A stretch of DNA of 20,214 nt, taken from a virus. The translations under genes were made by a program, and so were the position numbers. The DNA lies in the IMG/VR virus record IMGVR_UViG_3300035698_026233, positions 1 to 20,214 of that record, one strand, 5' to 3'. Positions within the stretch are counted from its first letter, which is position 1. The number at the start of each line of letters is the position of its first letter. Below the pieces are notes generated by a model. The model made no database searches. It was given only the letters and a program-made list of their open reading frames with translations, and was not told where the DNA came from. Shown piece by piece: positions 1 through 18,020 of the stretch.

Positions 1-3000
1 ATCTATCTCATTAAGAGAATATTCATAGGCAAAGTTACGAATTCCTAGTGGATTTGCTCGCTTGTAGAAAAACTTACCTTTACTTCTGTAGTTAAACTCA
101 AAAAGTTCGAAGCCTTTCTTTCCATAATGTCTAACGAAAGGAACTGGCTCTAGCGTACTAGTTTTAAAGCTACTACTTCTAGTTGATATAGCTAACTCTG
201 ATTGATTATAGTAAGGCTTATTATCAACTTGTAATAATTGAGCTTCAGTAATTGTAGGAACAGTAGAATTAGCTTCAGTAAAAGTATTACGAACAAATTG
301 GTTAGCAAAGTCTGTCCCTGTAAGTTCAACGTTTAACTGAAGTAATTCATTTCTAATGGCTTCAATTGCACGATACTTTCCGTTACCTGTCCAATGATAC
401 ATCTTAGGATGTACTAAAGATCTTAATGTAAACGGTGTGGTATTATACTGAGCCGTTAGCATCACATACTTAAGTAGGTCTTCAGCTACACTACTATACT
501 TTGAGTTAGAGTCTTGTAACATAGCATACCATAGTTCTCTAAAGAAGTCCACATTGGTTTCATCAAAAGAGGTTAAATCTAATACTAATCGATTTAAAAC
601 TCTACCATCTTCACCAGCTTTACTAAGAGCTTTAATCTTTTGGATAAAAGGAGTATAATCACCGGCTCCTTCTTTTTGAAGATCTAGTACTTTTAAGTAT
701 GTTTTCTCTAAGAATTCTTTTCGGTTAGTAGTTTCACTTACAAAAGGATGCTGAGCTATCCAGAAACTCATTATATGATCATTGACTTTTGCAATTTGTT
801 CAACTTTTAAATTACGACCTTCAGGCATTTGAGCTTGAATGCTATTTTTTAAGTCCATAAATGTATCTCGAAGCTCTGGATAAAACTTACTAAAGATTTG
901 ATGCACTGGTTCATGAGCTATTCTATAAAACATACCAGGAATTCGAGCTCCATCCTTACTAAAGAACTCGGAGGTACCTATAAGTGTTTTAAATCCTTCA
1001 GTTTGTGCTTGTTTTACAGCTCGTATTTGAACTTCAATAGCAGCAGTATTACTAGCAGCTGGGGTAGCGTCTGTTTTAGTAGCGGAGATTAGACGGGAGA
1101 GATCCGCCCCAGTCTGCTGTAATACTTTTAAGGTCTTAATTACTGTTTGATTATTTTCATTTGTATCAGCAAATAATTCTTGAGCGGAGTAATCTAAAGT
1201 TCGACCACCTTCAGATTCTAAAGCATCATTAATTATAACAGCTAATGGTTGATTTTCATTAATTGCTTTATTGGTAAGATTCCTAACCGTTCTGTTAGTT
1301 AAGAAAGCTGTAACATATTCGATAGACATACCTAAACGAATCATAAGTAATGCTATGTCAGCAGTGTGTGTGTTAAAGTTTAAGAATGGGGCAATAGGAT
1401 TTTTTCCATTATCTACCATAGCTGCTGAAAATTCAGCTAAGTTTTTAGTAATAGAACCAGATGCTCCCGTAATTAAATTTAATGCCTTATAAGCTATTCC
1501 ATTAATCGTGATAGGCTCATTTAATGATAATGAAGTATCCTGAGACTTTATTGCATGCATACTATGATTAGCAGTAACCCCAATCATTGCTTCACCAGTA
1601 ATTCCTCTTTCGTGAAATTCTGCTTGTGTCTGAGGGTAAGCTGCATTAAATTTGATATTCTCTGCGGCTTCAATACTTTTCTTCTTATTTGCTTTATCTA
1701 AAAGCTTTTCAAATGAATCGTTCGGGAACTCTTTTCGTAGTAATGTAGCATGAGCAGCGTTTTCTAAACGAACAAAGTTACCGGTTCCTAAAACATCTTC
1801 AGTATGATGAGGGCTAGTCATCACTGCTCTCATAATATCAATTAAAGCATTCTGCTTAGCTTTTTTATCTTGTTTAATTGTAAACTCCCCTTCAGCATTT
1901 TGAGAATAATCAAACTCGGTTTTGACAACTTTCCCTTCTTCTACTGTATGGTTAGGAGTAAATAAAAATAGTTTATCAATATCAAAGTCTAAACCGGCAA
2001 TCTTAGTTATTTCTTTAGGTAAAATAATAGATCCTCCAACAGAAGCTGGTAAGAATCCTTTTACTTTAATATTAAATACGGAGTATCGACTTTCAGTTGG
2101 GATACGGTACCCAATTAACTCGAGAACTTTACTATCAATATTATCACTATTTTTTAGAAGAGCTTTAGTCCATGCTGGTAAGTATGCTTCCATATGGACA
2201 ACGTTATTCTCACCTACTTCATACTTTAAAGTTTCACTCATACCATAAGAGGAAACATTTACAAACTGACCACCTGGCATCTTTTGAGTAAATACATTAC
2301 GCTTGTATGCTGATGATACTAAAGATTGGGTGACTTCTTTAACTGCGGATCCATTTAGATTAAAGATCTCATTTCCTTTAGCGTCTACGATAGTATCGTT
2401 AAGAGCTTCAATCGTGCTAGCTGGAAGACCTCGATCATAAGCCATAGCTCTAATCTTTTCCATTATAACTTCGATGTCACCGTTTTCAATATCCATATTA
2501 GCTTGTAAGCTATTTAGATCTTCTTGTAATAATGATTCGTTTAGATCAAAGTATAGTTTTTTTAATGCTTCTCCATTAAGCTCTAAACCGTCAATGTTGT
2601 AACTGTTTTCTGCATTAATTCCACTAACAATTATATTACGTAACTGAGATCCAAAACGAATAGCATACTGAAACCAGTGAGGAGGGTTATCTTGTTGCCA
2701 TCTTAAATCACTTAAATTTATATCGATGATAGCTTGATCTAATCCTTCTTCTTCAATATCTCCTAATGTTTTAAACGAAGCGTCTGAGTTTACTTTAGGA
2801 GCTCCCACTTTAATTGTACTATCAAACGTGATCATTCCTATTGTTTGACCATCTTCAGCTTGAGAGTTTAAAATTTCCCAAGCTTTTGCTAACTTAGGGT
2901 TAGTAGGATTTATTGCAACAATACCTTCATGAAGAACATGTACTGAGTTCTTCATCTGCATTGGTACTTTCTCTCCCCCATAGTTGTACTCACTAAAGTA

Positions 3001-6000
3001 GTAAGGCTTAATAGGTGGAAATAAGTTAACTAACTCTTGATTAGATAAAGGCTGAGAAGCTTCCCATTTATTGTAAGCTACTTCTTGTTCAGGTGTCCAC
3101 TTACCTAATGCATCGCTGAACTCTTTATAAGCTGCAGGAGACATGTATGTAAAGCCATCGGATGTATTATTATCGTCTTTCCAAAGATTCTGAATTACTT
3201 CATCCTGGTAAGCCATGGCTAAAATACGTGCTTCTCTTTCTTTTTGAGCTTCATATTCTTGCGGTTCTAGCGTAGGGCTAGCATACACATTAGCTACTTC
3301 TTCATCAGCTAAAATAACTGCTTTTAACTTACTGTGCGTATTCGCTCCACTTGTCATTCCTGGGGATCCTAATTGCTTGTAACGTTTAAAAGCATCCCCT
3401 ACACTTTTATAAAAAGAAGGGTCTTTAGAAAACATTGCAATTGTCTGAGTACTATAGTAAAAACTATTTAAAAAGTATAACTCAATTTCTGCAGCAGTAT
3501 AATTATCAGTTGGAAAATTTGTTTTATAATACTCTTGAAGTGCTTTTATTTCACTAGCTAGGTTTTTTTCAATAAGTTCTTTAACTCGAGCTTCATTACC
3601 AGCAACACTTGAAACTTTTCCGTTTAAGAATTTAAGATACTGAAACTTATCAGCTTGCTCACTGTAATGACGAAGATTAGATAATAAACTTTTGTTCTTT
3701 TCTAAGTTGTTCATTCTTCGTTCTTCCATGATAGCTACCTGAACTAGCTTATCTAAAAGTTGACTTCGATCAGTTAATTTACGATACGAAATAAAAGGAA
3801 GCATTGAAGAGTCAGCAGGAATCGGAATTGGAAATAAACCAAAGTTTTGTTTACGATTTCTGTAAGCGTCTAGTAATACTTTAGATAAGTCCTTCTTAGA
3901 TAAGTCTTTATACCCTTTGCGGTTACCGTCTATGTTAGCTCCATCTAGTACTTTAATACCGAAATCTGATAACATTGATAAAAGATCTTCTTTAATAGGA
4001 GCAGCTTCTAATGTTCCAGTAAAGAAATCATCAATGAATGCTTGTTTACCTTCTTTTATTTGAGCAATTTTTTGAGACAAGTAGGTTGGTTCTGTAATAC
4101 CAAATGTTCGCTTATTCTTCATATTCATGAAGACTTGTTGTACTTGTTCTCCCCATGCCGTTCTAAAGTACTTACCTATGTTTTGCCAAATACTTCTCGT
4201 GTAGTTGTTACTATCAATATTAACAAAAGGATTGTTATCTTTCGAAAGTTCGTTTACTAAAGTAAAGATTCCTTTCTTGTTTTCATTAAATAGAATATCA
4301 AAGAAACTCTGAGGAGTTTGACTTAAGAACAAAGATTGAAGTACATCACTACTTAAGTTGATATAGTTACTTTGTAGTAGAGCACTGAACTCATCTAAGT
4401 AAACTGCAGCTGTCTTACCATCTAAAGTTACACCGTTTAAGTCTTTAGTTTTCTTAAGCTCGGGTAACATTCTGTCAAAAATACCTTTGAAGACTACATA
4501 GTTTGCAGTAAACTTAGCTACTTTATCTTTATTAATAGCATCGTTACTCGAGTTAACTAAAGGGTTAGCTGGGTTTAAGAACGCTGCGACTAATTCTTCT
4601 TTTAAAATATGGAGAATGTCTCTTCGGTTAGACTCATAAGCATTGCCACTTCTAGCTATTCCGAAGTACTCGACTTGCCACATACCTCCGATACCTAACC
4701 ATAAATCTTTAATATAGTTCTTATCGTTAACAGCATCTTTATAAAGCTCTCTCGCCCACGCATGTTGAACTCCTAACTTACGTAACTTCTTCATCATTGA
4801 AGCTTGGTTACTCGAGTTTGAAATATTTCTTTCAAGAATAGACATTAACTGTCCGGGATCCTCTTTCAAAGTAATACCGAAGATGTTAGCCCCAGCAGGG
4901 TCACCGTTAAGTCCTTCTTTAGTAAAGAAAGCTAGTCTTCGTCTAAGTGAGTCTCTAAGTTTAGCTCTATTATCTTCAGTCCCTCTGTCTCTAAGGAAAG
5001 CCTCTTTTTCATAAACTTTGTCACTGAATAAATCAACTTCACCTTCTTCATCTCTAGATTGCCCAACAAAGTCTTTTGTAGCTAGGTTAACTTCTAACCC
5101 GAATCGTTTAAGATTAATGAGCGTAGCATTTAGTCTAGGAGTAGGATTAATTACTTTTCTGTAACCTGGAGTACTACTATCAATATTTTCATTTCCACCA
5201 AAATAAGCAATGACTGCTTGAGTGTATAACCTCTCAGCATTCTCATGACCATCTTGTCGTAATTTTTTTCTAAGTTGTAAAGTTCTTAGAAGAAGTGTAT
5301 CACGTAAGTAAGGTACTGGAATCGCTTTACCAGCTTCATTTACGTAACCACTAGCAGCAGCTGCTCTTCCAATTAATTGAGCATCTGATAAACTTCCTTT
5401 AATAGATTTGTTTAAGAAGTCACTTGTTCTAAGTTTTTCAACTAACTTATTGTATTGATCAAATAATACTTCTTGAAACGCTATTTCTTGAACAGGAGAT
5501 AAAGGAGCAGCTGTAGACATTGCTTTAGCAAACTGAGTTACATCTCGATTAAAAGAAACTTTACCTTGATAAAGTCCTTGGTTCATATCTCGGAATAACT
5601 TGTTTACGGAAATAGGACTTTCTACATTAAAGAATCCTTTAACCATTGTCCATAAATCAAGTAAGCTATCTTTAATTTTTTGACTTAAAGATCTATCTTG
5701 AAATAATAATGCTTCCTTTCTAAACTCTTCAGCTAAGTACTCTTCAGCTTCTAAGTCAGTCATTTCTGAGTTATCAAGGGAAGCTTTAACTTCATTGATC
5801 AGTTCTCGTTGTTGTACATTATTTAAAGCTAATGTAAACACAGCATGAAAAGCTTCATGGTATCCACGCCCTACTGTTCCAGCTGTTCGTAAATAGATAG
5901 CTGCATTAGTAAAGAGACCTTCAATATTTTTTCCTTTACTACGAACATTATTAATAAGTTCGGTCATCTGCTCTGAAACAGGAAGTCCTGTTTCGTCACT

Positions 6001-9000
6001 GAATTCTTTAACAGCTGTACTAGACCCTAGGATACTAGCAACATAAACTTTTTCAGCTTCAATGTTTTCAACAGTATTATCACTAACATTAAATGTAGAA
6101 GGCTTAATAGTACCATCAGCATTCATGTCATCTGGAATATCTAAGTCACTGTCATCTAGATAGTCAGGGTCTGAACTTTCAGTTTCATTTGAAGTTTCAT
6201 CTAAGTTATCATTTAGAGCTCGTTTACCTAAAGCCATAAAAGCGTTATCAAACTCTGGATTAGTTCGACCATTTTCATCTTGATCTTGTACAGCAGGCTT
6301 AGTATCTATTTTAGGATCAGGTTTCGTAACTGCTTCTTTAGATGCAGGTTGAATACTAAACCCAGTAGAGTGTACAGGATAATCAATGTTTAAATCAGTT
6401 TGTAAGTAGTCATTTACTGAGTCGTTATAATTACCATTGTTTAATCTTTCAGCTTCAATATAAAAGATTGTTTTATCTAATTCAGCTTTTAACTCATCTG
6501 CAGTAACAGGTTTACTTTTAGTAGCTTCACCGGCACGGCCAGTTTTCCAATGCATACTTCCGTCAGGCATAGGAATAATATGACGATTCGAAGAATCATA
6601 ACCAACGTGAAGAAGTGCACTTATTTCTGCAACCATATCCATTTTCTTTTGGACATCAGCCTCAGCATAAATACGATCTACAAGATCATATATTTCTTGT
6701 TGCTTCTCTGGAACTTGTTCTAAATATTTAGTAAATAATTGAGTAGTAATGTGATCTCCGTTTGCAGACTTAACTAACATAAATATTTTACCACCGATGT
6801 AATGTTCATCTTCTTGATTTAAACCGGCATGTTTAAAAGGATCTAAACCTTCAACATCTTTAACTACTTTTTCATCAGCAATTGTTTCTATTCCTTTCCA
6901 TGCTACATCAGTACCATTATTAACTACAGTTGTTAATAAATATAATGGAGCACCTTTTAAAATTTCTTTAGGAGTATGTACATTCTTAGGATTATTAGCA
7001 TCTAGAGTATATAAGTTTCCGGGCTTTTTACCGTCAACTTCAAATGAAGAAGAAAACTCAAAAACATCAGTATTAGATTCTCTACTTTTATATTCTTGAA
7101 GAACTGCGTTTCTTAATGATTTAATTTTTGAATTTCGATCAGCTCTTTGAATATGACCTAAAAATATTTCTTCCTGAGTAGCGGGATTAATTGTCCAAAT
7201 TTCTAACGCTAAAGTGTTATCAGAAGCATTTTTATTCCACGTACGTAAAGGATTAATTCGAATAACTGCTTTCCATCCAGGAGTAACTTCGCCAAATTCG
7301 TTGGTTCTTCTTTGAGGAGTAAACTCAGGATCATCTAATAAATTATAATTTAAAGTAGGATCATCCGGATGAGCATTAGTTGCTGGAATATACTTACCTG
7401 TGTCTGGATCTACTTGAGGAGTATTAGCAGTTTTACGATTACTACTGTTCCATTTAAATTGTGTACCGACTACAGGAAATGAAAAAGTACTTTCTTTAGT
7501 TGTAGAGTTTGGAGCTCCTTCTACTTTATCTTTTAGATCTGAGCTTACACCAGATTTTTCTTTAGGGCCATTAGGAGTCACCTTACTACCATTCTCATTA
7601 GTACGGTAGTACTCTCGAATCTTAACCAGAGCTTCTGGTTGGTTAGCCATTAAGTTAGCTACTTCAGCACTAAACGCATCTATCTCAGCTGGTAATGCTA
7701 TGCCTAGCTTTTCTTCTAGTGCAGCTTTATCGCTTTCAAAATTAGCAACATGAGTAGGCTCTGAATAAAATTCTTTTAATCGGTCAGCATATGCAGTTTC
7801 GATTTCTTCAGTACCTTGAGGTACTTCAAGGTTATTCCAAGTTAAAGGATCTTCATTAGCTCTGTCTTGAATAGCTTTACTAGTTTTTGTAGTATCCCCA
7901 GTAATGTCTTTCTCAGCTGCTTTAGCGTCAGCAATATCTGCGGTAGTCTTAGCCGTACGAATAGCTTCTGCTTGAGCTTTAACTGCTGCTTTCTTACTAT
8001 CTTCTCGAACTTTTTCACGCTGCTTCATAAGATCTTCGTCTCCTTTTAGGATTCGATTGCCTTTTTCTTGTGCATCAGCTCGAGTAAGTTTATTGAAAAT
8101 ACCAGCAAGCTCAGCTTCGTAAGCTTGATTACCTAGAAAGTCAACGTTTCCTGGAACAGCAGGAAGTTCTTTACTTGCTTCTTCTAAAGTAATAAGTTCT
8201 TTTTCTAAGGCTTGAAGTTCGTTAACTATAGCAGTAGTTTCCTTATTTCTTTTTCGAGAAGGAAATTTAGATAATGCTTTCTTAATAGCAGAAATTCTGT
8301 GCTTATTAATAAAAGCTTGACGCTGATCTTGGCCATCTTCTACTTTAAGTTTCTTTTGCTGAACTGCTTTATCAGCAGCTTGTAAAGCCATATCTGCATG
8401 ATAATCTTGTTCAAATGCAGATACTTGCTCAAGATAACTTTGTTCTAAATAATCAGCTATTTGAGGTTTAGTGTACCCTTGTGTTTTTAAAAAGTCAGCT
8501 TCATTTTGTAATCCTTTAATAATAGGTAAGACAGACTTAGAAACTTCATTAGCATCATTATCACCTGCTACAGCTTCAATAGCTTCGACACGTTTAATAA
8601 TACCGTTTAAGTCTCCGAAATCTTTTCCTTCACCGGCTTGTATGTAACTACTTTTTATTTGACTGCCTCCTTTTATAGCTCGCTCTTTAGAAAGCTTAGT
8701 AAAGTTATATAAGTTTTTTGCAGCAACAATATCAGACATTTGACGTCCGACCATATTAGTAATCTTACTTAAGCCTGGGCCAGCAGCTTGAAAACCGGCT
8801 CCCATAACGGCTCCCATTAACATAGCTGATTGCATTTCATCTTCAGCTAAGTATTTATCTAATCTTTCACTGAAACCCTCACCAAACATTTCTCCAGAAT
8901 TCTGAGCCTCTTGAGAAACAACATATTGGTAACCTTCTTCAATTGCTTCACTACCGGCTACAGCTGCTAATTTACCTGCTTGCTTTAAAGCTTTTTGACT

Positions 9001-9963
9001 GTAGTTACCAAACTTAGAAGCTTTGCTTCCGATATTAGGAACTGAAACAGCTTTAACTTTTCCTATTCCTCTAAAGCTTTTAAATATAGTAGCAAATTGT
9101 ACAGCATCTTGAATAGCTGCTCCCCAGTTCCAACGAACAGTTTTAGCAGCGTTATCTGCAGCTTGCATGTATGCTTCTGCGTACGGGCCACTCATAGCTT
9201 GCTCAGGATTCTGAGCTAGTAAAGTTGTTAAGTTGGCTACTTCATCAGCCTTAACTCCTTGGTCTAGTAAGCCAGCTGATAAAGATTCTTGAAACGTTCC
9301 GTATCCTTCTAGCATGTTTTCCATGTACCTAGAAGTTGTAGTTGCAGCTACTAGTTGTCCAGTAGCACTTGCAGCTTGCATAGCTTTAGCTCCTAACTGA
9401 AGCCCTTTAGCTATTCCTCCAGCTATCTTAGCTCCAGCCATACCTGCACCTAAACCAGGTAACATTAGTGATAGAGTAGAACCAATTGAAGGAGCATTAA
9501 CTGCCCAAGACATAGCATCAAAAGGATTAAAGTATTGTTCTTCTTCTGTAGCGTAGATAGGGTTACCTGCTTGGATAGCTTCTTTCTTTTCTCTTAAAGC
9601 AGTTGAAAAAGAGTTCTGTCCTTCTAAGTATTCGTTCTCATTGTTTTCAAATAGTTGCTCTAAAAAGTAACCAGCTGTTTCAGCCATTTCGATAGGCACA
9701 GCAGTAGCAACATTAGTCATGGCATTAGAAAAAACATCCCATTGAGTTTGATTTCCTCTTCGTAAAGATTCAATGTTCATTCCTGGTTGGTATCCTTTAT
9801 CATACTCAGGTTCAGGAGCATTTTCAATACCAGAGTTAATAGAAAAACTTAATGCATTTTTTCTATCATTGTTATAGGAATCAGAGGGTGCATTTGCATT
9901 TGCATTCGCATCTAAAGAATCTTGGAAGGCTTTCCAGTCTCCTAATTTTGGATCTTCTGCCAT
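1..9963 (-). CDS. Giant virion protein: zincin-like protease plus crAss-like RNA polymerase (3' end outside window)
   Basis: The frame starting at ATG 9963 has no stop codon down to base 1, giving at least 3321 residues; the C-terminus lies outside. In order it shows: a short ANANANA run (19-25); Gly/Ala-rich hydrophobic segments near 142-201 and 378-400; charged coiled-coil-like stretches near 520-600 and 635-690; an Asp/Glu-rich linker near 1255-1282; HEAFH at 1369-1373 with a Glu cluster at 1405-1413, as in zincin metallopeptidases; and DFDID at 2659-2663, the metal-binding triad of crAss-like virion RNA polymerases. From family knowledge, such proteins are packaged and ejected, and the polymerase transcribes early genes in the host. 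The protease may process the chain or act during entry; that is inference. The start follows the previous stop by 34 bases. The polymerase call is strong, the protease call good, and other regions are unassigned. Confidence 0.93.
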   Translation of the reverse strand, partial: MAEDPKLGDWKAFQDSLDANANANAPSDSYNNDRKNALSFSINSGIENAPEPEYDKGYQPGMNIESLRRGNQTQWDVFSNAMTNVATAVPIEMAETAGYFLEQLFENNENEYLEGQNSFSTALREKKEAIQAGNPIYATEEEQYFNPFDAMSWAVNAPSIGSTLSLMLPGLGAGMAGAKIAGGIAKGLQLGAKAMQAASATGQLVAATTTSRYMENMLEGYGTFQESLSAGLLDQGVKADEVANLTTLLAQNPEQAMSGPYAEAYMQAADNAAKTVRWNWGAAIQDAVQFATIFKSFRGIGKVKAVSVPNIGSKASKFGNYSQKALKQAGKLAAVAGSEAIEEGYQYVVSQEAQNSGEMFGEGFSERLDKYLAEDEMQSAMLMGAVMGAGFQAAGPGLSKITNMVGRQMSDIVAAKNLYNFTKLSKERAIKGGSQIKSSYIQAGEGKDFGDLNGIIKRVEAIEAVAGDNDANEVSKSVLPIIKGLQNEADFLKTQGYTKPQIADYLEQSYLEQVSAFEQDYHADMALQAADKAVQQKKLKVEDGQDQRQAFINKHRISAIKKALSKFPSRKRNKETTAIVNELQALEKELITLEEASKELPAVPGNVDFLGNQAYEAELAGIFNKLTRADAQEKGNRILKGDEDLMKQREKVREDSKKAAVKAQAEAIRTAKTTADIADAKAAEKDITGDTTKTSKAIQDRANEDPLTWNNLEVPQGTEEIETAYADRLKEFYSEPTHVANFESDKAALEEKLGIALPAEIDAFSAEVANLMANQPEALVKIREYYRTNENGSKVTPNGPKEKSGVSSDLKDKVEGAPNSTTKESTFSFPVVGTQFKWNSSNRKTANTPQVDPDTGKYIPATNAHPDDPTLNYNLLDDPEFTPQRRTNEFGEVTPGWKAVIRINPLRTWNKNASDNTLALEIWTINPATQEEIFLGHIQRADRNSKIKSLRNAVLQEYKSRESNTDVFEFSSSFEVDGKKPGNLYTLDANNPKNVHTPKEILKGAPLYLLTTVVNNGTDVAWKGIETIADEKVVKDVEGLDPFKHAGLNQEDEHYIGGKIFMLVKSANGDHITTQLFTKYLEQVPEKQQEIYDLVDRIYAEADVQKKMDMVAEISALLHVGYDSSNRHIIPMPDGSMHWKTGRAGEATKSKPVTADELKAELDKTIFYIEAERLNNGNYNDSVNDYLQTDLNIDYPVHSTGFSIQPASKEAVTKPDPKIDTKPAVQDQDENGRTNPEFDNAFMALGKRALNDNLDETSNETESSDPDYLDDSDLDIPDDMNADGTIKPSTFNVSDNTVENIEAEKVYVASILGSSTAVKEFSDETGLPVSEQMTELINNVRSKGKNIEGLFTNAAIYLRTAGTVGRGYHEAFHAVFTLALNNVQQRELINEVKASLDNSEMTDLEAEEYLAEEFRKEALLFQDRSLSQKIKDSLLDLWTMVKGFFNVESPISVNKLFRDMNQGLYQGKVSFNRDVTQFAKAMSTAAPLSPVQEIAFQEVLFDQYNKLVEKLRTSDFLNKSIKGSLSDAQLIGRAAAASGYVNEAGKAIPVPYLRDTLLLRTLQLRKKLRQDGHENAERLYTQAVIAYFGGNENIDSSTPGYRKVINPTPRLNATLINLKRFGLEVNLATKDFVGQSRDEEGEVDLFSDKVYEKEAFLRDRGTEDNRAKLRDSLRRRLAFFTKEGLNGDPAGANIFGITLKEDPGQLMSILERNISNSSNQASMMKKLRKLGVQHAWARELYKDAVNDKNYIKDLWLGIGGMWQVEYFGIARSGNAYESNRRDILHILKEELVAAFLNPANPLVNSSNDAINKDKVAKFTANYVVFKGIFDRMLPELKKTKDLNGVTLDGKTAAVYLDEFSALLQSNYINLSSDVLQSLFLSQTPQSFFDILFNENKKGIFTLVNELSKDNNPFVNIDSNNYTRSIWQNIGKYFRTAWGEQVQQVFMNMKNKRTFGITEPTYLSQKIAQIKEGKQAFIDDFFTGTLEAAPIKEDLLSMLSDFGIKVLDGANIDGNRKGYKDLSKKDLSKVLLDAYRNRKQNFGLFPIPIPADSSMLPFISYRKLTDRSQLLDKLVQVAIMEERRMNNLEKNKSLLSNLRHYSEQADKFQYLKFLNGKVSSVAGNEARVKELIEKNLASEIKALQEYYKTNFPTDNYTAAEIELYFLNSFYYSTQTIAMFSKDPSFYKSVGDAFKRYKQLGSPGMTSGANTHSKLKAVILADEEVANVYASPTLEPQEYEAQKEREARILAMAYQDEVIQNLWKDDNNTSDGFTYMSPAAYKEFSDALGKWTPEQEVAYNKWEASQPLSNQELVNLFPPIKPYYFSEYNYGGEKVPMQMKNSVHVLHEGIVAINPTNPKLAKAWEILNSQAEDGQTIGMITFDSTIKVGAPKVNSDASFKTLGDIEEEGLDQAIIDINLSDLRWQQDNPPHWFQYAIRFGSQLRNIIVSGINAENSYNIDGLELNGEALKKLYFDLNESLLQEDLNSLQANMDIENGDIEVIMEKIRAMAYDRGLPASTIEALNDTIVDAKGNEIFNLNGSAVKEVTQSLVSSAYKRNVFTQKMPGGQFVNVSSYGMSETLKYEVGENNVVHMEAYLPAWTKALLKNSDNIDSKVLELIGYRIPTESRYSVFNIKVKGFLPASVGGSIILPKEITKIAGLDFDIDKLFLFTPNHTVEEGKVVKTEFDYSQNAEGEFTIKQDKKAKQNALIDIMRAVMTSPHHTEDVLGTGNFVRLENAAHATLLRKEFPNDSFEKLLDKANKKKSIEAAENIKFNAAYPQTQAEFHERGITGEAMIGVTANHSMHAIKSQDTSLSLNEPITINGIAYKALNLITGASGSITKNLAEFSAAMVDNGKNPIAPFLNFNTHTADIALLMIRLGMSIEYVTAFLTNRTVRNLTNKAINENQPLAVIINDALESEGGRTLDYSAQELFADTNENNQTVIKTLKVLQQTGADLSRLISATKTDATPAASNTAAIEVQIRAVKQAQTEGFKTLIGTSEFFSKDGARIPGMFYRIAHEPVHQIFSKFYPELRDTFMDLKNSIQAQMPEGRNLKVEQIAKVNDHIMSFWIAQHPFVSETTNRKEFLEKTYLKVLDLQKEGAGDYTPFIQKIKALSKAGEDGRVLNRLVLDLTSFDETNVDFFRELWYAMLQDSNSKYSSVAEDLLKYVMLTAQYNTTPFTLRSLVHPKMYHWTGNGKYRAIEAIRNELLQLNVELTGTDFANQFVRNTFTEANSTVPTITEAQLLQVDNKPYYNQSELAISTRSSSFKTSTLEPVPFVRHYGKKGFELFEFNYRSKGKFFYKRANPLGIRNFAYEYSLNEID
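1534..2976 (-). other. RNA polymerase catalytic core within the giant protein
   Basis: This covers residues 2330 to about 2810. Asp2659, Asp2661 and Asp2663 in GLDFDIDKLF match the DxDxD metal triad of the beta'-like double-psi barrel. RIPTESR at 2620-2626 lies 39 residues before the triad, like the RAPTLHR segment that precedes NADFDGD in cellular beta'. GGSIILP lies between them, where beta' has EGKAIQLHP. Upstream, Lys2338 (in VPMQMKNS) and Lys2385 (in STIKVGAPK) are candidates for the beta-like barrel lysines, 274 residues or more before the triad; that is inference. GSQ at 2438-2440 lies between the barrels. GEAMIGVTANHS at 2790 resembles the beta' GEAVGVIAAQS segment near the trigger loop and may be its counterpart. 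Confidence 0.88.
5719..5865 (-). other. Zincin-like metallopeptidase site within the giant protein
   Basis: Residues 1367-1415 hold GYHEAFHAVF followed by EAEEYLAEEF. His1369 and His1373 would bind zinc and Glu1370 would be the general base of a HExxH helix. A Glu among 1405-1413 is the likely third ligand, as in gluzincin-type or ImmA-like arrangements. Zincin domains have been reported in very large crAss-like phage proteins, which supports the reading. The site follows an acidic linker and precedes the polymerase core by about 970 residues. The substrate is unknown; cleavage of the giant chain itself or of a host barrier are both possible. Confidence 0.7.
9361..9540 (-). other. Hydrophobic Gly/Ala-rich N-terminal segment of the giant protein
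   Basis: Residues 142-201 run through SIGSTLSLMLPGLGAGMAGA and continue as Gly/Ala-rich sequence with few charges. A similar stretch, SAMLMGAVMGAGFQAAGPG, sits at about 379-397. Such segments are common in phage internal virion proteins that cross or insert in host membranes during DNA ejection. They could be one or two amphipathic or membrane-spanning helices; the function is inferred from composition only. Confidence 0.5.
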
Positions 9964-9997: not shown

Positions 9998-11986
9998 TTA
10001 ATTTAAATAGATGTTTAAATACTCTAATGGGTCTTGGAAGTACTTAATTTTCCCTTCAGATTGAACATATCTACGACCCGTAATTGGATCAGATGTGTAA
10101 AATTTATACCCTTCAACGGTTCTTTCGTAACCAACTTTAGCGTTAGAAGGAGCACTATCTGGAAGTAATTCATTTAACTCTCCAGAATTTCTAGGACTTT
10201 TTCTAATTTTAGACGCAGCTGAATGTACTCTTGTCTCTATACCATCAGCTAATCTATTATCTCCGGTATAGTATGTACTTTGAGCTCCTGTTGTTTTATC
10301 AGATACCACAATTCTTGTAGCGTAGGCAGAGTGTGTAGGATTACCTACTCCTGAAAAACCTGTAACAGTAATAGATTTATTTGTCCAATCGCCTGAGTCC
10401 ATAACTTTGTCAGATGTGGTTTCTTGTCCAGAAGGAGTATACCATTTAGTAGGCATATCTAAACTACCTAAAGTATATTTATTTTGCTCCGCAGCTCGAT
10501 CTCTTAACGAAGCCGGACTTGTCCCCCACTCTCGATATGTATTATTATGTATAGTAGCTTTATCTTTCATTTCTTCAAGAATAAGATTATTAAAAGATGC
10601 TTTATTATTATTATACATATTTTTTAAATCTTCTTTACTATAAGCTTCACCATAGTATGTTTGAAGATTATCTATCACATTGTTAATTTCTTCAGATGAG
10701 TAAAACTGAGAGTTTAAATTTTCACCATGTTTTACAAAGCCTACACTTTTTTCTAAGCCCTTCATTTCAGCAGGTGTAAGAGATTCTTTATAACGATCTT
10801 TAATCTTCGTTTGTAAATCATTTATTTTAACATCTCTAGTATATGAAGCTTTATCTGATTCAACATTCCAGTATAACATTTCTGTTAAGTTAGCTAAAGA
10901 AGCTACATCGTTTCCTATCTTTTTAAAGAAACTCTGCTTTTCCATATTTTTCATTTTGAGCTTTTGTTCTTCAGTGAGTCCAACAGCATCATAATACTTG
11001 TCTAATCTTTCTTCAGTAGTTAACCCAATTAGTGATGGCTCAGCAGGATCAAATGGATTCATCTGGGCTCCATCTTCAACTCTCAAAGTAGTCTCATCTA
11101 AAATATCTTTTTTAGTAGGAATTGCTTCAGGAGTGTTATGAAAACGAGTACTACTAGTATTACTTTCTTTTTTTGTAGTCTTCATACCGACCATAGCTTG
11201 AGCTCTCATCATCAACTGATTAGCATTTTCTCCTTTGTATGCCATAGATTTATTAAGCTCACTTCCTGGATCTGTTAATTCTGCATTCACATATGAAATT
11301 GCAGCTTCTAAACTTTTAATATTATTATCAGTTAAATCTTTGTAATCAACAATTTTAAGCATACCTCCGACATTAGTAATTCGGCTTCCCCCATCTTCAT
11401 TTAAAATATGTCCAGTAGCTTCTTTAAATGTATCACGTACGTAAGTATTTAAATCAACTCCTTTAGGAATATTAAATACTAAATTACCCTTATAGTCTAA
11501 CTGCTCCCCATCTTTTCCTATAGATCCCCACTTACCTTCAGCTTTAAGTTTATCTTGCTCTTCTCCCCATTTATTTTCTGCTTGTTCTCTACTAAAACCA
11601 GACTGCATTGAATTAGTTAAATAACTTGCTTTTGCATTATCAAATTGATTAAAAGCTTCTTGAGCTCTAAACCCTCTTCCTGTTGTTTTCCACGAATTAA
11701 TATCTTTCTGTAACTTAAATAAGTTACGAGATAAGTTAGGATCATTAGGATTACTTGCAATTTGATTAGCTACCTCTTCTGTTTGTTTCGAAAATTGGGA
11801 AATATCCTCTTGCACAAACGGATCATCTTGTTCAGTTCTATTAACATCTGTGTCTAAACCGGCTAGTAACTCATTCATTGTGTCTCTACGTCTTTGACGT
11901 TGTAGAGGCAAAGCAGTAGCTTCTTGAAGAGTTACTTCAGGAGTCGTAGGCTGTATTCTTATGTTGGTGTATCTTCCAAAACTCAT
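9998..11986 (-). CDS. Probable internal virion (cargo) protein, 662 aa
   Basis: I cannot assign a named family with certainty. The protein is soluble, highly charged and mostly helical in appearance, without a signal peptide or membrane segment. The N-terminus has an Arg-rich patch (QRQRRRD at about 30-36) followed by a low-complexity acidic stretch, then helical repeats rich in Lys, Glu and Asn. The C-terminal region (about 530-662) looks more beta-rich, with Gly, Thr and Tyr. Its place between the 607-aa protein and the giant polymerase gene matches the internal 'cargo' proteins of crAss-like phages, which are packed in the head and tail and ejected. It starts 2 bases after the previous stop and has a Shine-Dalgarno-like site (AAGGA). 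A structural scaffold for the polymerase is possible but unproven. Confidence 0.6.
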   Translation of the reverse strand: MSFGRYTNIRIQPTTPEVTLQEATALPLQRQRRRDTMNELLAGLDTDVNRTEQDDPFVQEDISQFSKQTEEVANQIASNPNDPNLSRNLFKLQKDINSWKTTGRGFRAQEAFNQFDNAKASYLTNSMQSGFSREQAENKWGEEQDKLKAEGKWGSIGKDGEQLDYKGNLVFNIPKGVDLNTYVRDTFKEATGHILNEDGGSRITNVGGMLKIVDYKDLTDNNIKSLEAAISYVNAELTDPGSELNKSMAYKGENANQLMMRAQAMVGMKTTKKESNTSSTRFHNTPEAIPTKKDILDETTLRVEDGAQMNPFDPAEPSLIGLTTEERLDKYYDAVGLTEEQKLKMKNMEKQSFFKKIGNDVASLANLTEMLYWNVESDKASYTRDVKINDLQTKIKDRYKESLTPAEMKGLEKSVGFVKHGENLNSQFYSSEEINNVIDNLQTYYGEAYSKEDLKNMYNNNKASFNNLILEEMKDKATIHNNTYREWGTSPASLRDRAAEQNKYTLGSLDMPTKWYTPSGQETTSDKVMDSGDWTNKSITVTGFSGVGNPTHSAYATRIVVSDKTTGAQSTYYTGDNRLADGIETRVHSAASKIRKSPRNSGELNELLPDSAPSNAKVGYERTVEGYKFYTSDPITGRRYVQSEGKIKYFQDPLEYLNIYLN

Positions 11987-11988
11987 AA

Positions 11989-13812
11989 TTATCCTTTTTT
12001 CTTTTTAGTAAAAGTCCAGCTCCTACCGTTAGCAAACTTACTTGGCATAATTGTATCAGGAGCTCCTTCTAAACCAGTACCAAACATATTAGCAAATTCT
12101 GATGGCATATCTCTACTATTAGATCCATAAATTTGCGGAGTTTGATTAGGCATAATAGTGTTAGGAGCTCCTTCTAAACCGGTACCAGACATGTTAGCAA
12201 ACTCACTTGGCATAGTAGTGTTAGGAGCTTCTTGTAATGGCATAATAGTGTTAGGAGCTTGTTGAGAATTAGTCAGTTCTTGACTATTATCTTTTTTCTT
12301 TTTAGTGAAAGTCCAGTTTCCACTATTATCAATTTGCTCACCTTGATTAATTCGATTAGCGTTTATTGTACTCTGCATCGTATTATTAGTACGTTGGTTA
12401 CGAGTTTCAGCTAATGTGTTTAACCAAACATTCATATCTTTATCGTTCCAATCTTGAAGAGCCATACTTCTAGTTAGATTGTTGGCTTCTTGATTAGATC
12501 GTACTTGATCCACATTCATATCGATACCGGCTTGTGCCTCTTGAGTTTTAGTATAAGCTTCAGCATTTTGTTTCTGAGTTCCTTGATTAAGAGCAATGTT
12601 ACTCGAAAGTATATCTCCAGCATCAGTAGCATTTTGTCCAATAGATCTACGAGCTCTTCCCTCAGCATTTTCGTTTGCTCGAAAAATAGATCGGTAATCA
12701 ATTTTAGGATTACGGATTTTACTATTATTATCAAACATTTTAAGATCTTTAGGAGTAGGCTTATTCTTTTTAAGATCTCGAATCATCCTTTGAGAACCTA
12801 GCATAGACGCTGCAGCATTTGCTCCATTCATTACTTGCATAGGATTCACACTAAACTCCATATCTCCTCCGCCGGCATAGTTTAATTTACCTCCCATAGC
12901 CATTTCTACCGCATCAAAAGCTTCATTAATCTGACTCATCTTACCTTTGTAAAGCTCTTGACCTTCCATTAGTTTATTAAGTTCTTGCTCAATTCCAGAT
13001 TGAACCACACTATCTTCTTTACGTTGTCCAGTAGGATCGTATTTCTTTTCAATAGCTTTAGAAATATCAGCAAAAGTTTTCTTGTGATACTTCTTATTAT
13101 CAAGTTTTAAAGCTTGAAGTAACCCTTTAGGAGCAACTATACGGTCAGAGAAAATATAATCTTTGGCTTTTATTTTAGTTTCACCTTCTTCAACGTTAGC
13201 ATTAGGCCCTTGAGCTATACCTCCGTTAGGATTAGCTTCGTGAGTTCCTCCTGCATCAAAGTTTGTAAGTTGTCCTCCGTCTGCGTAGCTTAGTTTACCC
13301 CCGTATTTCATTCCTCCCATTCCTCCAACAGAACTGTTGGCCATATTAAAAACACCTTGTGATACTCCACCTATAGCTTCCATTTGATCTTGATCTACAT
13401 CAGATTCACGACCATCGATAGAACTGTATATATCTTGACCAGCAGTGTAAGCTCCAGAAACAGCTTGACCAGCTTGAGGATTACCAGTAGCTATTGTTGC
13501 AGCCATGCCAGCTATTTGAGGGGCTACAGCACTTCGTATACCTACAGCAGTATCAGAAATTTTATCTATACCTCTTCCTACATCCGTTTTTTGTTCGTAA
13601 CCAACTAAGTCATCAAAGTCTTTACCGGTAACATTTCCGACAACAGCTCCGAGACCAGTGGAAGTTATTCCAGCCGAAACTGTATTCATCGCTAAATCAG
13701 ATGCTAAATCTTTACGGTAACCGTTTTTATTTTCTTTAACTTTTCTACCAGTTTCTGAAATTCTTCGACCTAGTTTAGTCTTACCTCCGCCTTTTCTGTT
13801 TAATAGTCCCAT
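11989..13812 (-). CDS. Probable internal virion or capsid-associated protein with GGKLxYAxGG motifs, 607 aa
   Basis: The N-terminus is strongly basic (MGLLNRKGGGKTKLGRR), followed by a Gly/Ala-rich, mildly hydrophobic region near 40-160. Two related motifs, GGKLSYADGG (about 172-181) and GGKLNYAGGG (about 306-315), flank a middle section with GGTHEANPNGGI and VEEGETKIKAKDYIFSDRI (about 185-225). From memory, this GGTHE...NP.GGI...EEGET..DYIFSDR pattern recurs in structural proteins of Bacteroidota phages, but its function is unclear. The part after about 330 is Asn/Gln-rich and helical. The last 110 residues hold repeats ending in WTFTKKKK (500-507 and 599-606). The gene lies 9 bases after the 190-aa gene and 2 bases before the 662-aa gene, so it probably belongs to the internal or cargo module. 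Coiled basic ends could bind DNA; that is inference. Confidence 0.65.
   Translation of the reverse strand: MGLLNRKGGGKTKLGRRISETGRKVKENKNGYRKDLASDLAMNTVSAGITSTGLGAVVGNVTGKDFDDLVGYEQKTDVGRGIDKISDTAVGIRSAVAPQIAGMAATIATGNPQAGQAVSGAYTAGQDIYSSIDGRESDVDQDQMEAIGGVSQGVFNMANSSVGGMGGMKYGGKLSYADGGQLTNFDAGGTHEANPNGGIAQGPNANVEEGETKIKAKDYIFSDRIVAPKGLLQALKLDNKKYHKKTFADISKAIEKKYDPTGQRKEDSVVQSGIEQELNKLMEGQELYKGKMSQINEAFDAVEMAMGGKLNYAGGGDMEFSVNPMQVMNGANAAASMLGSQRMIRDLKKNKPTPKDLKMFDNNSKIRNPKIDYRSIFRANENAEGRARRSIGQNATDAGDILSSNIALNQGTQKQNAEAYTKTQEAQAGIDMNVDQVRSNQEANNLTRSMALQDWNDKDMNVWLNTLAETRNQRTNNTMQSTINANRINQGEQIDNSGNWTFTKKKKDNSQELTNSQQAPNTIMPLQEAPNTTMPSEFANMSGTGLEGAPNTIMPNQTPQIYGSNSRDMPSEFANMFGTGLEGAPDTIMPSKFANGRSWTFTKKKKG
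11992..11996 (-). promoter_or_regulatory. Ribosome binding site AAGGA for the 662-aa gene
   Basis: AAGGA lies 5 bases upstream of ATG 11986. It overlaps the last Lys-Gly codons of the preceding gene, so the Lys-rich tail of that gene also supplies this site. It is the clearest Shine-Dalgarno match in the window and supports this start. Confidence 0.5.
12000..12320 (-). repeat. Degenerate in-frame repeats at the 3' end of the 607-aa gene
   Basis: The repeats encode four copies of AP(N/D)T(I/T)MP, three of MPS(E/K)FAN, two of GTGLEGAP and two of WTFTKKKK. At DNA level the two GTGLEGAP units (about 12034-12105 and 12150-12212) differ at scattered, mostly third-position bases, and the WTFTKKKK units lie about 297 bases apart. 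All spacings keep the frame. Such repeats arise by duplication and can change in number by recombination. Confidence 0.85.
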
Positions 13813-13816
13813 GTTA

Positions 13817-13824
13817 CAAAGTTA
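13817..13824 (-). promoter_or_regulatory. TAACTTTG box 4 bases before the 607-aa gene start
   Basis: TAACTTTG matches the Bacteroidota -7 consensus TAnnTTTG and includes the TAA stop of the 190-aa gene. The same octamer sits at the same 4-base distance before the 243-aa gene (20103-20110). No clear -33 TTG is visible. The octamer also occurs inside the giant gene (30-37 and 1773-1780), so chance cannot be excluded. Confidence 0.3.
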
Positions 13825-14394
13825 GTAATTTACGAAATTATATGTATACATGCAAGGATAAAGTTTAAATTGAAGAAAATCATCTCCAACTGGATCATTA
13901 TTATAAGTAAGTTTTAAGTAAACATACTCATTGCACATACGTTGTAAAGTTCTTCTAGAGTTTACATCTCGAGCAAACTGTGTTCTCCACATTCTCATAT
14001 GCTGATTAGTTCTTCTAGAATCGATAGCTAAATTAATACTACCTGTAGTCTGATACTCATTCCATGCTTCGTAAGTATCGAAATTTACATTTTCTACATT
14101 TTCCCCAGCTAAGTTACTTGCTTCTAGTTTATAACCAAATGTATAGAAATTTTTATTTACTTGAGGCTGTTGGTTATAGATCAATGTAACGTAAGAAGAA
14201 TTAGTTGCTCCAAAGTAAGAACCATATTCTCCTCTATTTTGAACATATAATCTGAATCTTGCAGGCCCTGTTGCAAAAAAGTTATAACTATCAGAGAACA
14301 TAATAACTGGACGATAGCTATGTCTAGATACAAAGCTTTCAGTAATTTCATTAAAACTGATTGTTATGTTAGTAGATGAAGATAAAGTTGCCAT
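13822..14394 (-). CDS. Neck/tail protein, 190 aa, possibly a detached C-terminal part of the muzzle
   Basis: Its start overlaps the stop of the 1208-aa muzzle-like gene by one base (TAATG), so the two are probably translated by coupling. It has no signal peptide or membrane segment. The protein is rich in Tyr, Phe, Asn and Thr and looks beta-structured. It opens with TISFNEITESFVSRHSYRP, a pattern that in related phage structural proteins follows a section like the LGYDPLTYNVYISIL near the end of the 1208-aa protein. That suggests the two once formed one muzzle polypeptide. The frames differ by -1, and the -1 frame upstream is closed by a stop at 14407-14409 with no slippery heptamer in between. 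A programmed fusion is therefore unlikely, and this reads as a separate gene. No enzymatic motif is visible. Confidence 0.75.
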   Translation of the reverse strand: MATLSSSTNITISFNEITESFVSRHSYRPVIMFSDSYNFFATGPARFRLYVQNRGEYGSYFGATNSSYVTLIYNQQPQVNKNFYTFGYKLEASNLAGENVENVNFDTYEAWNEYQTTGSINLAIDSRRTNQHMRMWRTQFARDVNSRRTLQRMCNEYVYLKLTYNNDPVGDDFLQFKLYPCMYTYNFVNY

Positions 14395-17300
14395 TATGAT
14401 ACTGGATTATCTGATTCAAAAGGAGCTGGAGTACCGGAACCACCATCAATTAATCCTCCAGTACCGTCATGAAGTATTGAAATATAGACGTTATAAGTCA
14501 AAGGATCGTACCCTAATCGAACACCGGTTCCGTTATTATATAAGTCATCCTCAATAGTCTTTGGAAGCTTTAATAGTAAGCTATGAATTCCTTTGTAATC
14601 TGAAACAGGATCATCATTTTGACTAATTCTTAAAAACTTCTTCTTACTGTAATCTAGTACATATACACCCTTAGCTCCGACAATTGATCCAAAAGGATAA
14701 CGTGATCCATACTTATCAGAAACAATAGTATAGTTATGAAGAATATCTCCTCGACCTAAACTTGTTTGTTGACCCGCTGCAGTGGAAACTGTAGCATTAG
14801 GGGAAACAGACCAGTAACCTGAACCGTATTCTTGAACCACAAATAACGTGTCATTGAAAATATGAAACGCTGTGATGTTTCCAAATAAAGCATCTACTGT
14901 TGATTGATTGCCGGCACGAAAGATAGCATGTCCGTCAATGTAAGAGTTATTGACATTTGTATCTGAGTATCTTGTTAAAATACCGTTGTTATCAATTTCA
15001 GTAAAACTAAAAGGTTTTACATAATACTTGAGAAAATTATCCTGAGTATGATAAACATTATTATATGGAGGGATTAATTCTTTAGTTTCAGTAGGAGTTT
15101 TATGTTGTTCAAACTTATTTTCTCCAGAAACTAAAGCTAAGTTAATATAAGACTCAATAGGAATTTCTACAAATGTTTTTGAAGATTGAATATTTGTTAC
15201 AGACCCTGATATATCTGTCGTTCCTGGATTAGTATAGACCGGGGTACTATAATCAGTATGAGTTAAAAATTCAGGATCAAAATTAAGAGGATCTCCGGAA
15301 CTGTTATTTACAACATCGTAATCCATAAGTAAGAACTTATATAATGCTGGAAAACAATCTCCATTGTAAGCTCGCATATTAATAACTTGTGTACTTGCTC
15401 CAATTTCTTGAGTTTCGCTACAAGCTATATAAGCTGTATTTTGACGGTTTAAATATCCGTTACCTCCGTAGTAAGTAATATTAGAAATGTCATTCCAAAT
15501 TTGAGCTACAACATAATGTTCTCTTGTGTCAGCTGCAATAATTACTGCTTGGTTACCTGTTACTTCAGTAACAAAGTCTCCTCTGCAATCTAATAAATAA
15601 CCATTAGTAGAATTAGCTCGTAGTATTAATAAGTCTGCAGGACTAGCAGAAAATGCTCCAGGAGCATATATATAATTTCGGTATTGGGTACCTGCAAAAA
15701 TAGAAGGAGTAGTTCCACTAGTAGCAGAAGTAGCTGCAATTTCATAAGCAGGAAAAAATACATCAGAGGGACTTAAGCCTGTACCAGTTCCTACATTAGA
15801 AGCACCTTGATTTAATACCCAATGATAACGTTCTACTCCGGCATGTGCATAAGCAAAAGCATCGAACCAGCTACTAGCCGTACTAGAGTAGGGTTCATCT
15901 GCATTAAAAAGGTCTGTCCAGTCTGCTAACGCTATATAACTTCCAGAATCATCGTCAAGAGCACTTTTAAAATAACCAGTTGCACTTATTCGAGCTCCGG
16001 CAATAACATGAATACTATCAGTATCAGTAGCAGATAATAAACTACTTGCATAGCTTCTTTCAGGACAATAAAAATTTAAAAAATCTCGGTTTATTAAAGC
16101 TTCTCCTGTGTTACTTCCACCTAGTTCTGTGTTTTGTGCAGTAGCTCTTAAATCAGTTTTTAACCAATTACCTGCATCTTGTGCACTACCATTTATTATG
16201 TGACGTAACATATACATTGGCATATATGTTTTTCTATAATCTTCGTTACCTGCTCCAGAATACAAATAAAATGTAGGGTTTAGTATTCCTTGAGATTTGA
16301 TGTATCTGTTCTCATGATTAGTTTCTGCTCTAACTATTCGAAAACTGTAGACATTATCAGGAAGAGTATCTAAGTTGTCAAATGTAAAACGAGGATACAA
16401 ATTTTTCATATTTGATCCATCGTATAAGTCTAACGATAAAGAGATCATGTTTTGTAATACTGGCATACGAATATCTCCTATCCATTTTACAAATAAAGCA
16501 TTTCCCCATTTATCAAAAAACTGAACTCCGAATCTGTAGATCTCTCCACGTTTGTAACCAGCATCTTTTATTTTATGCCCAGCTTTAAAGTTATCTGTTG
16601 CAATATCTTGTACACTATAGTTAATAGAAACATTAAGTCCTTCAGCTCCTAGTGTAGTTCCATTACTCTGAAACTTATTTAATTGGTACGTAGCATCTTT
16701 AGGGTCAGTATATAAGCCAGCATTAATTGTATCTAGTGTTTCATCAGTAGGATACTGTTTCGTAGGATCAGAAATATCAATAAGGTATTCGTTACTTCCA
16801 TTAGCATCGACTAGTTGAACCTCTCCTGCTGCAATAAACTGGTAAGCTCGAGCATCATAATCAAAAGTGACAGCTTGCGTAGACACATTTCCTATAAACA
16901 CTCTATTATCTTTAAACTCTAAAGTCTTTGGAAAGTACGGGCCACCTGGAGTAGTAAGTAAATTTTCAATATCGCCTTCTAAAGCAATGTTTGTAAAATC
17001 TCCTCGGTCTTTAAGTTTAAAAGAACTACTTTCAATTAATCCTTCATAGATAATGTGAGCAGTTGTATTTCGAGCTACTGCATCATCACGAGTGAATCGA
17101 TAAACTTCAATGTATTCAAAAGCTTGATCGATACTTGACATTTCTAAAGTGAACACACACGTACCTTTTTCACCTGATGGCACACCATGATTGTCTTTCG
17201 TAATTGCTGCTGGTAATGATAATGGAGACATTCTAGTAGCTGGGCCATGTTTAGTATATAATCTATAACCATACTGAACTGTACCTGCTCCTACGCTCCA

Positions 17301-18020
17301 TTCGCCGCCTCCTCCATCTGTAATAGTAACTTCAGGAGTAATAAAATCCCAAGCTGGTGTGGCATCAATAGTCTTTACAGGAAGGTTTAGTAAATTACTT
17401 CCCGCAACATTTAAGATACGCATCTGGTTTTGCCCGTTGTCTACCCAGTATAATTTTTGAACAGTTTCACTTTCATAAAGTCCAAAGATCTTTGTGATAA
17501 GATTCGCATCACTCATATTAGCAGTGGGCCCAAAATACACTAAAGACACTACTGTAGTAAAGTCTGTATCATAGTTTATTTTCCAAACAAATAAATGTCC
17601 TGCTCCTGCTGTGTCGGTTGAAATTACATAAATATCATCTTTAATAAATGATCCTCCTAGTATTGTTTGAGAAGTAATAGCTGGAGTTCCAGAATACCAA
17701 GAAGTATCAAATTGACTGCCAGGTAATAAACGTTGAATATGATCATCATTACCACTGTTAAAATCACCGACTGCTTCTGCATAACTTGTAGCAGTGGCAT
17801 TAACTAAAATAGTAGGATTACTGTTTAATAAAACATTTGGTAAGCTCATCATTAACTTGTTACCACGCTCATTAGATATAATATTACGAGATAACTCTCG
17901 GTTAAAGACAATAGTAATATTTTGAGCATCAAAGTAGAACTGATCCCTTTTAGGATCTTTGGCGTTCATATCTTGATCTAGTCCACCATACTGATTATAT
18001 GCTTCTCTAGGTTGTGGCAT
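14394..18020 (-). CDS. Muzzle/tail stabilisation-like protein of crAss-like phage, 1208 aa
   Basis: From family knowledge, the muzzle forms the end of the short tail barrel and gates ejection of DNA and cargo. The N-terminus carries the pattern typical of this family: NQYGGLDQDMNAKDPKRDQ (9-27), then a DAQNITIVFN segment and a SNERGNKLMMSLPNV segment near 32-61. The rest is a long beta-rich protein with many Gly, Thr, Ser, Asn and Tyr residues, resembling P22-type tail-needle-region or tail-hub proteins, and without transmembrane segments or catalytic motifs. The last 30 residues form a Gly/Pro-rich tail. The gene starts inside the stop of the 285-aa adaptor gene (TAATG), and the 190-aa gene starts inside its own stop. 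Its place right after the P22 gp4-like adaptor matches crAss-like gene order. Confidence 0.85.
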   Translation of the reverse strand: MPQPREAYNQYGGLDQDMNAKDPKRDQFYFDAQNITIVFNRELSRNIISNERGNKLMMSLPNVLLNSNPTILVNATATSYAEAVGDFNSGNDDHIQRLLPGSQFDTSWYSGTPAITSQTILGGSFIKDDIYVISTDTAGAGHLFVWKINYDTDFTTVVSLVYFGPTANMSDANLITKIFGLYESETVQKLYWVDNGQNQMRILNVAGSNLLNLPVKTIDATPAWDFITPEVTITDGGGGEWSVGAGTVQYGYRLYTKHGPATRMSPLSLPAAITKDNHGVPSGEKGTCVFTLEMSSIDQAFEYIEVYRFTRDDAVARNTTAHIIYEGLIESSSFKLKDRGDFTNIALEGDIENLLTTPGGPYFPKTLEFKDNRVFIGNVSTQAVTFDYDARAYQFIAAGEVQLVDANGSNEYLIDISDPTKQYPTDETLDTINAGLYTDPKDATYQLNKFQSNGTTLGAEGLNVSINYSVQDIATDNFKAGHKIKDAGYKRGEIYRFGVQFFDKWGNALFVKWIGDIRMPVLQNMISLSLDLYDGSNMKNLYPRFTFDNLDTLPDNVYSFRIVRAETNHENRYIKSQGILNPTFYLYSGAGNEDYRKTYMPMYMLRHIINGSAQDAGNWLKTDLRATAQNTELGGSNTGEALINRDFLNFYCPERSYASSLLSATDTDSIHVIAGARISATGYFKSALDDDSGSYIALADWTDLFNADEPYSSTASSWFDAFAYAHAGVERYHWVLNQGASNVGTGTGLSPSDVFFPAYEIAATSATSGTTPSIFAGTQYRNYIYAPGAFSASPADLLILRANSTNGYLLDCRGDFVTEVTGNQAVIIAADTREHYVVAQIWNDISNITYYGGNGYLNRQNTAYIACSETQEIGASTQVINMRAYNGDCFPALYKFLLMDYDVVNNSSGDPLNFDPEFLTHTDYSTPVYTNPGTTDISGSVTNIQSSKTFVEIPIESYINLALVSGENKFEQHKTPTETKELIPPYNNVYHTQDNFLKYYVKPFSFTEIDNNGILTRYSDTNVNNSYIDGHAIFRAGNQSTVDALFGNITAFHIFNDTLFVVQEYGSGYWSVSPNATVSTAAGQQTSLGRGDILHNYTIVSDKYGSRYPFGSIVGAKGVYVLDYSKKKFLRISQNDDPVSDYKGIHSLLLKLPKTIEDDLYNNGTGVRLGYDPLTYNVYISILHDGTGGLIDGGSGTPAPFESDNPVS

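Follow-up and report, generated by a model that had tools for sequence, protein, structure and literature searches.

Virion packaging and early-gene transcription are known from the literature for the RNA polymerases of two crAss-like phages, phi14:2 and crAss001. In phi14:2 the polymerase is gp66 (PDB 6vr4; gp077 in the GenBank numbering of KC821624), the product of a separate gene of 2180 aa with an upstream partner, gp078 (1797 aa). In crAss001 (Steigviridae), the polymerase gp50 and the protein gp47 are encoded by two genes on opposite strands; virions of this phage contain gp45, gp46, gp47, gp49, and gp50, and the cargo proteins are thought to exit before the DNA, partly unfolded (PMC10172136). 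According to a review, the polymerases of crAss-like phages can be as long as about 6000 residues (PMC10136315). A different virion polymerase, the N4 vRNAP (gp50, Schitoviridae; a polyvalent protein), is a chain of about 3,500 residues in which a membrane domain at the N-terminus is combined with the RNAP and an HExxH domain; its C-terminal domain regulates it, and it is ejected as beads on a string (PMC12633501). It is packaged unprocessed, and its zincin has been tied to the Pro-Pro endopeptidase kind of protease (PMC5512222). Phage P23-45 gp96, a tape measure-vRNAP fusion, combines a two-barrel polymerase with an injected giant protein carrying metallopeptidase and membrane domains (PMC10770324).

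The window analyzed here is a whole virus record of 20,214 b, and the protein described below is a divergent crassvirus fusion, a kind of protein that is already known. We read it as a Crassvirales cargo protein, gp47-type and gp50/gp66-type virion proteins joined in one chain, which would be ejected intact and whose zincin would act elsewhere than on the bond between the N-terminal part and the polymerase; we give this reading a probability of about 0.6. The giant ORF (1..9963, minus strand) runs from an ATG at 9963 to position 1 without a stop (3321 codons) and is open at the contig edge, as the preliminary description had reported, with its C-terminus beyond that edge. A stop-free run of the length observed, 3327 codons, has a chance of about 10^-95 at the base composition of the window. 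Its closest relative (L007) has a colinear giant ORF of 3794 codons, to which residues 3 to 2153 and 2163 to 3316 of the window protein align in order (BLAST, 27 to 32% identity), with about 40% identity in the polymerase core. The L007 ORF ends about 100 residues past the last codon of the window, and a separate gp49-type gene comes after it; from this end position, the window protein is predicted to have about 3420 residues, of which about 100 are missing. That L007 is colinear throughout speaks against a frameshift or assembly join within the frame, a possibility that the preliminary description had itself raised. A single contig with an open end might be taken for an assembly artifact or a missed frameshift, but L007 and its near-copy L008, assembled separately, carry the same colinear giant ORF, and dozens of relatives have a giant ORF too; such an explanation is hardly credible, and the giant phage protein, with 3,321 residues or more, is real. 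No model in Pfam or PHROGs matched the giant protein, and a direct search of viral contigs found no relatives of residues 2101 to 3321, for which alignments were needed.

The giant ORF adjoins cargo, muzzle, and ring genes, the late cargo block of Crassvirales, and all of these genes lie on the minus strand. The gene at 9998..11986 occupies the position of crAss001 gp46 (cargo protein 2) by synteny and has no family match; it is followed by cargo protein 1 of the crAss001 gp45 type (11989..13812; Pfam crAss_CARG1, E=2e-19), the muzzle C-terminal domain as its own gene (13822..14394; Pfam crAss_MUZ_C, E=4e-9), the muzzle (tail) protein (14394..18020; Pfam crAss_MUZ, E=2e-105), tail ring protein 1 (18020..18877; Pfam CrAss_Ring_1, E=7e-44), a phrog_12177 gene of no assigned function in an IHF-like position by synteny (18870..19370), and tail ring protein 2 (19367..20098; Pfam CrAss_Ring_2, E=6e-30). 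The muzzle is thus split over two overlapping genes (13822-18020, minus), a 1208-aa body and a 190-aa C-terminal domain with a one-base overlap at 14394.

The C-terminal two-fifths of the giant ORF is the polymerase. The core (residues 2142 to 2919; 1207..3540, minus) is of the phi14:2 gp66 type: the window sequence alone matches the phi14:2 polymerase structure 6vr4 with an E value of 6.6e-28, and the two are colinear over phi14:2 residues 870 to 1677 in a sequence alignment whose profile includes phi14:2. The DFDID catalytic motif (residues 2659 to 2663; 1975..1989, minus) lies in this core and is conserved in the alignment, DFDxDK being invariant in all 16 rows, so that the polymerase core placed at residue 2659 by the preliminary description holds up; in shuffled versions of the giant protein, 0.03 DFDxD motifs are expected. 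The giant ORF therefore carries what homology identifies as a two-barrel-type Crassvirales virion RNA polymerase. It shares with phi14:2 gp66 the homologous core, the DFDID motif, and neighboring virion genes, and differs from it in that gp66 is a separate gene; the core of crAss001 gp50 is homologous too, but only about 24% identical to that of the window. The polymerase, being of the phi14:2 type and not a T7-like single-subunit enzyme, places the protein outside the N4 vRNAP family.

Upstream of the polymerase, the preliminary description had noted a large N-terminal addition relative to gp66. The extra part is real, but it is not unexplained. It begins with a helical domain (residues 54 to 427; 8683..9804, minus) homologous to the N-termini of crAss001 gp47 (E=7e-23 in an iterated profile) and phi14:2 gp078 (E=2e-38). 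The profile matches proteins of crAss001, cr112_1, Dulem 41, and phi14:2, always at the N-terminus, and also fused giants. AlphaFold modeled residues 1 to 490 as entirely helical (mean pLDDT, 71). A motif conserved across the homologues, EAIEEGYQ (residues 339 to 346; 8926..8949, minus), has the general form EAxEEGxQ; E339, E343, and the downstream G384 are invariant in 67 homologues. A Foldseek search of this domain against the PDB gave no significant match, which is not evidence for a new fold, and in BFVD the best matches, all weak, were other crAss-like giant proteins. The hydrophobic N-terminal segments reported earlier are present, one at residues 166 to 184 (9412..9468, minus; mean Kyte-Doolittle, 1.24) and the other at residues 380 to 398 (8770..8826, minus; mean, 1.17), but both are rich in glycine and fall short of the hydrophobicity of a typical transmembrane helix. 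Judged by homology, then, the part before the polymerase is the virion protein that split phages encode separately (crAss001 gp47, phi14:2 gp078), and since it matches that protein piece by piece, the addition is a fusion of two known virion proteins.

The C-terminal end of this gp47-type part is a zincin domain (residues 1287 to 1487; 5503..6105, minus), preceded by an acidic low-complexity linker (residues ~1188 to 1306; 6046..6402, minus). It matches the C-terminal ends of the gp47-type proteins of crAss001, cr112_1, and Dulem virus 41 (BLAST, 30 to 32% identity over 117 to 142 residues); in crAss001 gp47, the HEAFH zincin lies 185 residues from the C-terminus, whereas in phi14:2 gp078, which has the same N-domain, no zincin is detectable. 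The HEAFH site at residue 1369 (residues 1369 to 1373; 5845..5859, minus), which the preliminary description had picked out, sits inside a domain conserved over alignments of 76 to 80 sequences, and shuffling of the giant protein gives an expectation of only 0.035 HExxH motifs. HExxH is present in 134 of 142 matched zincin stretches and is followed downstream by a conserved EExxAE, here EEYLAEEFR (residues 1407 to 1415; 5719..5745, minus), whose conserved glutamates would supply the third zinc ligand. Both histidines and the glutamate are conserved in nearly all lineages at a mean column identity of about 18%. An AlphaFold model built on 76 sequences (mean pLDDT, 80; about 90 to 96 in the core) has the expected topology, namely, a strand-helix-strand-strand order, an HExxH helix, and a later EExxAE helix. 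Plain Foldseek against the PDB returned no significant match for the domain, and in VIA-align the 17 best rows were all zincins (IrrE, Pro-Pro endopeptidases/PPEP, and M34) at modest Z scores of 4.9 to 5.8; a profile match to Pro-Pro endopeptidases (E=0.01) aligned both motifs, and when 80 zincins were scanned one by one against Pfam, the matches were only weak and scattered. A second HExxH in the giant ORF, HEPVH at residue 3017 in the polymerase part, has a proline after the glutamate and is probably a chance occurrence.

Fusions of this kind are widespread. We scanned IMG/VR twice, with a zincin seed (partly on YHEAFH) and with a polymerase seed (on DFDxDK), each scan being biased by its seed, and obtained 98 distinct polymerase cores, a few of them from named phages. 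Zincin and polymerase share one ORF in 60 of the 98, the zincin is on another ORF in 13, and no zincin was seen in the remaining 25, in some of them owing to a truncated contig. The longest fused ORF has 5714 codons, and in some ORFs gp49 is part of the fusion. Fused chains of 3 to 5.7 thousand residues are frequent, and those of classified Suoliviridae carry the annotation "hypothetical": cr1_1, cr4_1, and cr113_1 have the zincin within single CDSs of 13.0 to 13.7 kb, and the giants of cr1_1 (QOR58537, 4551 aa) and cr4_1 (YP_010112556, 4491 aa) show the same one-CDS fusion as the window, zincin then polymerase, in the same position, although their sequences are strongly diverged. The layout of gp47-type protein, zincin, and polymerase in one chain is therefore common in crAss-like phages. 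Split arrangements also occur: crAss001 has gp47, gp49, and gp50 as separate genes, and Dulem virus 41 has a matching gene order but encodes its gp47-type, gp50-type, and gp49-type proteins in three genes. A FastTree phylogeny of the cores requires only five changes between fused and split states, versus a shuffled mean of about 25; the window and L007 group together at full support within a mostly fused clade. Gene fusion and fission have occurred on both sides of the zincin.

Several polymerase genes in this set are unusual in other ways. In cr4_1 (L170) and cr113_1 (L172), the giant polymerase ORFs, each annotated as one CDS, break up into short ORFs when read with the standard code, which is consistent with a reassigned stop codon. 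The polymerase ORF of cr116_1 (L006) is interrupted right at the catalytic core, and a small gene lies between the two resulting ORFs, which fits the introns reported for crAss-like polymerase genes. A 229-kb contig from a bacterial isolate, Spirosoma oryzae DSM 28354 (L190; NZ_PVTE01000009), contains a 3367-codon ORF in which a polymerase core is accompanied by a zincin-like stretch lacking HExxH; this ORF adjoins a gp49-type gene and may belong to an integrated crAss-like phage.

The position of the zincin between the N-terminal part and the polymerase, with its motif intact, led the preliminary description to suggest that it cuts the polymerase free, and autoprocessing by the zincins of injected multidomain, polyvalent proteins has been proposed by Iyer et al. 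(PMC5512222); the cut could fall in the head or after ejection. If the zincin freed the polymerase, an intact site would be expected to track fusion, and it does not, so a release role is unsupported. All 13 sampled split lineages that have a zincin keep HExxH, as HEAFH, where no bond between N-terminal part and polymerase exists. HEAFH is also retained in four lineages (L009, L033, L053, and L105) in which the N-domain has its own gene and zincin and polymerase are joined. Conversely, a fully supported clade of triple fusions (L152, L155, L158, and L167), with N-domain, zincin, polymerase, and gp49 in ORFs of up to 5714 codons, shows WEAMR or WEAFR in place of the motif, and HExxH occurs nowhere along these chains; L157, with HEGFE, is a separate case. 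Among the polymerase-seeded set, which is free of bias for the zincin motif, we counted 37 fused intact, 5 fused dead, 9 split intact, and 29 with no zincin seen, near-copies included; these counts are of lineages rather than independent events, and the dead-site clade is one event. Searches by hhalign for a zincin in phi14:2 gp078, DAC15_61, cr116_1, L115, and L138 found none, the matches being near background. In the giant ORF itself, the acidic linker precedes the zincin and none was seen between zincin and polymerase, and the N4 vRNAP is packaged uncut (PMC5512222). As far as these sequences go, HExxH also occurs outside fused chains, and fused chains can do without it; cutting the polymerase free is not supported as a conserved function, and we consider it unlikely.

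Alternatively, the zincin might serve the cargo or polymerase chiefly as a structural or regulatory module, without any need for catalysis. The four-lineage clade and, separately, L157 have kept the domain although its site is destroyed, and the C-terminal domain of the N4 polymerase, which includes the HExxH subdomain, regulates that polymerase allosterically (PMC12633501). The loss of HExxH shows that catalysis is dispensable at least in that clade, as would be expected of a trans role that is not always needed but equally of a noncatalytic role. However, the conservation of both histidines and the glutamate amid such low column identity is difficult to account for unless the domain catalyzes or binds zinc, and we regard a mainly structural role as improbable.

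The gp49-type proteins have a zincin-like motif of their own: HEFGH in phi14:2-like phages and some fused lineages and, in most others, a widely conserved EExxH, such as LPEEFAHF at residue 233 of crAss001 gp49 (L004:13434-17483). Examples of this second motif include L146, L151, L153, L164, L137, and L161, among many others; in the EExxH form, the first zinc histidine is replaced by glutamate and the rest of the motif is undecayed. A rule that each cargo set has exactly one active zincin, in either gp47 or gp49, was considered and rejected: both are intact in L118 and L133, and neither is in L152, L155, L158, DAC15, and others. A more speculative idea, for which the odds are clearly against, is that the crassvirus cargo zincin, once a protease or still one part of the time, has been retained to support or regulate the virion polymerase; the triple fusions have lost its site, and the second zincin-like domain, that of gp49-type proteins, has EExxH instead of HExxH in most lineages. 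If true, injected polymerase complexes would use paired zincin-like domains for assembly or control, not for cutting.

We therefore return to the reading of a cargo protein ejected intact. The earlier proposal of an ejection-type N-terminal region, a zincin, and a polymerase in one Crassvirales virion chain is supported by homology and architecture. Within the gp47-type portion, a long middle stretch lies between the helical N-domain and the zincin. By analogy with crAss001 and phi14:2, in which both parts have counterparts and gp47 and gp50 are both in the crAss001 virion, the giant protein would be packaged in the virion and would leave it before the DNA, following cargo proteins 1 and 2, with the N-domain leading passage through the envelope. 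The polymerase would transcribe early genes while still in the chain, beads-on-a-string like the N4 vRNAP, and the zincin, predicted to be probably an active metallopeptidase, would act in trans on a host or virion protein. The N4 vRNAP, with its N-terminal ejection/membrane domain, polymerase, and HExxH zincin-like domain, offers the best functional parallel, and we infer that the window protein works likewise, uncut, although the N4 polymerase is of the unrelated T7 type and its zincin lies C-terminal of the polymerase. In P23-45 gp96, the polymerase is N-terminal and the protein is the tape measure of a long-tailed phage (PMC10770324).

A full-text literature search, whose reach did not extend to figures and closed papers, found no description of a zincin in crAss-like phages or Crassvirales; within the same text, neither the identity of the extra part as a gp47-type protein plus zincin nor the separability of the protease site from the fusion state was found described. 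The comparison of split and fused phages makes the question of whether the protease frees the polymerase directly testable with existing isolates such as crAss001.
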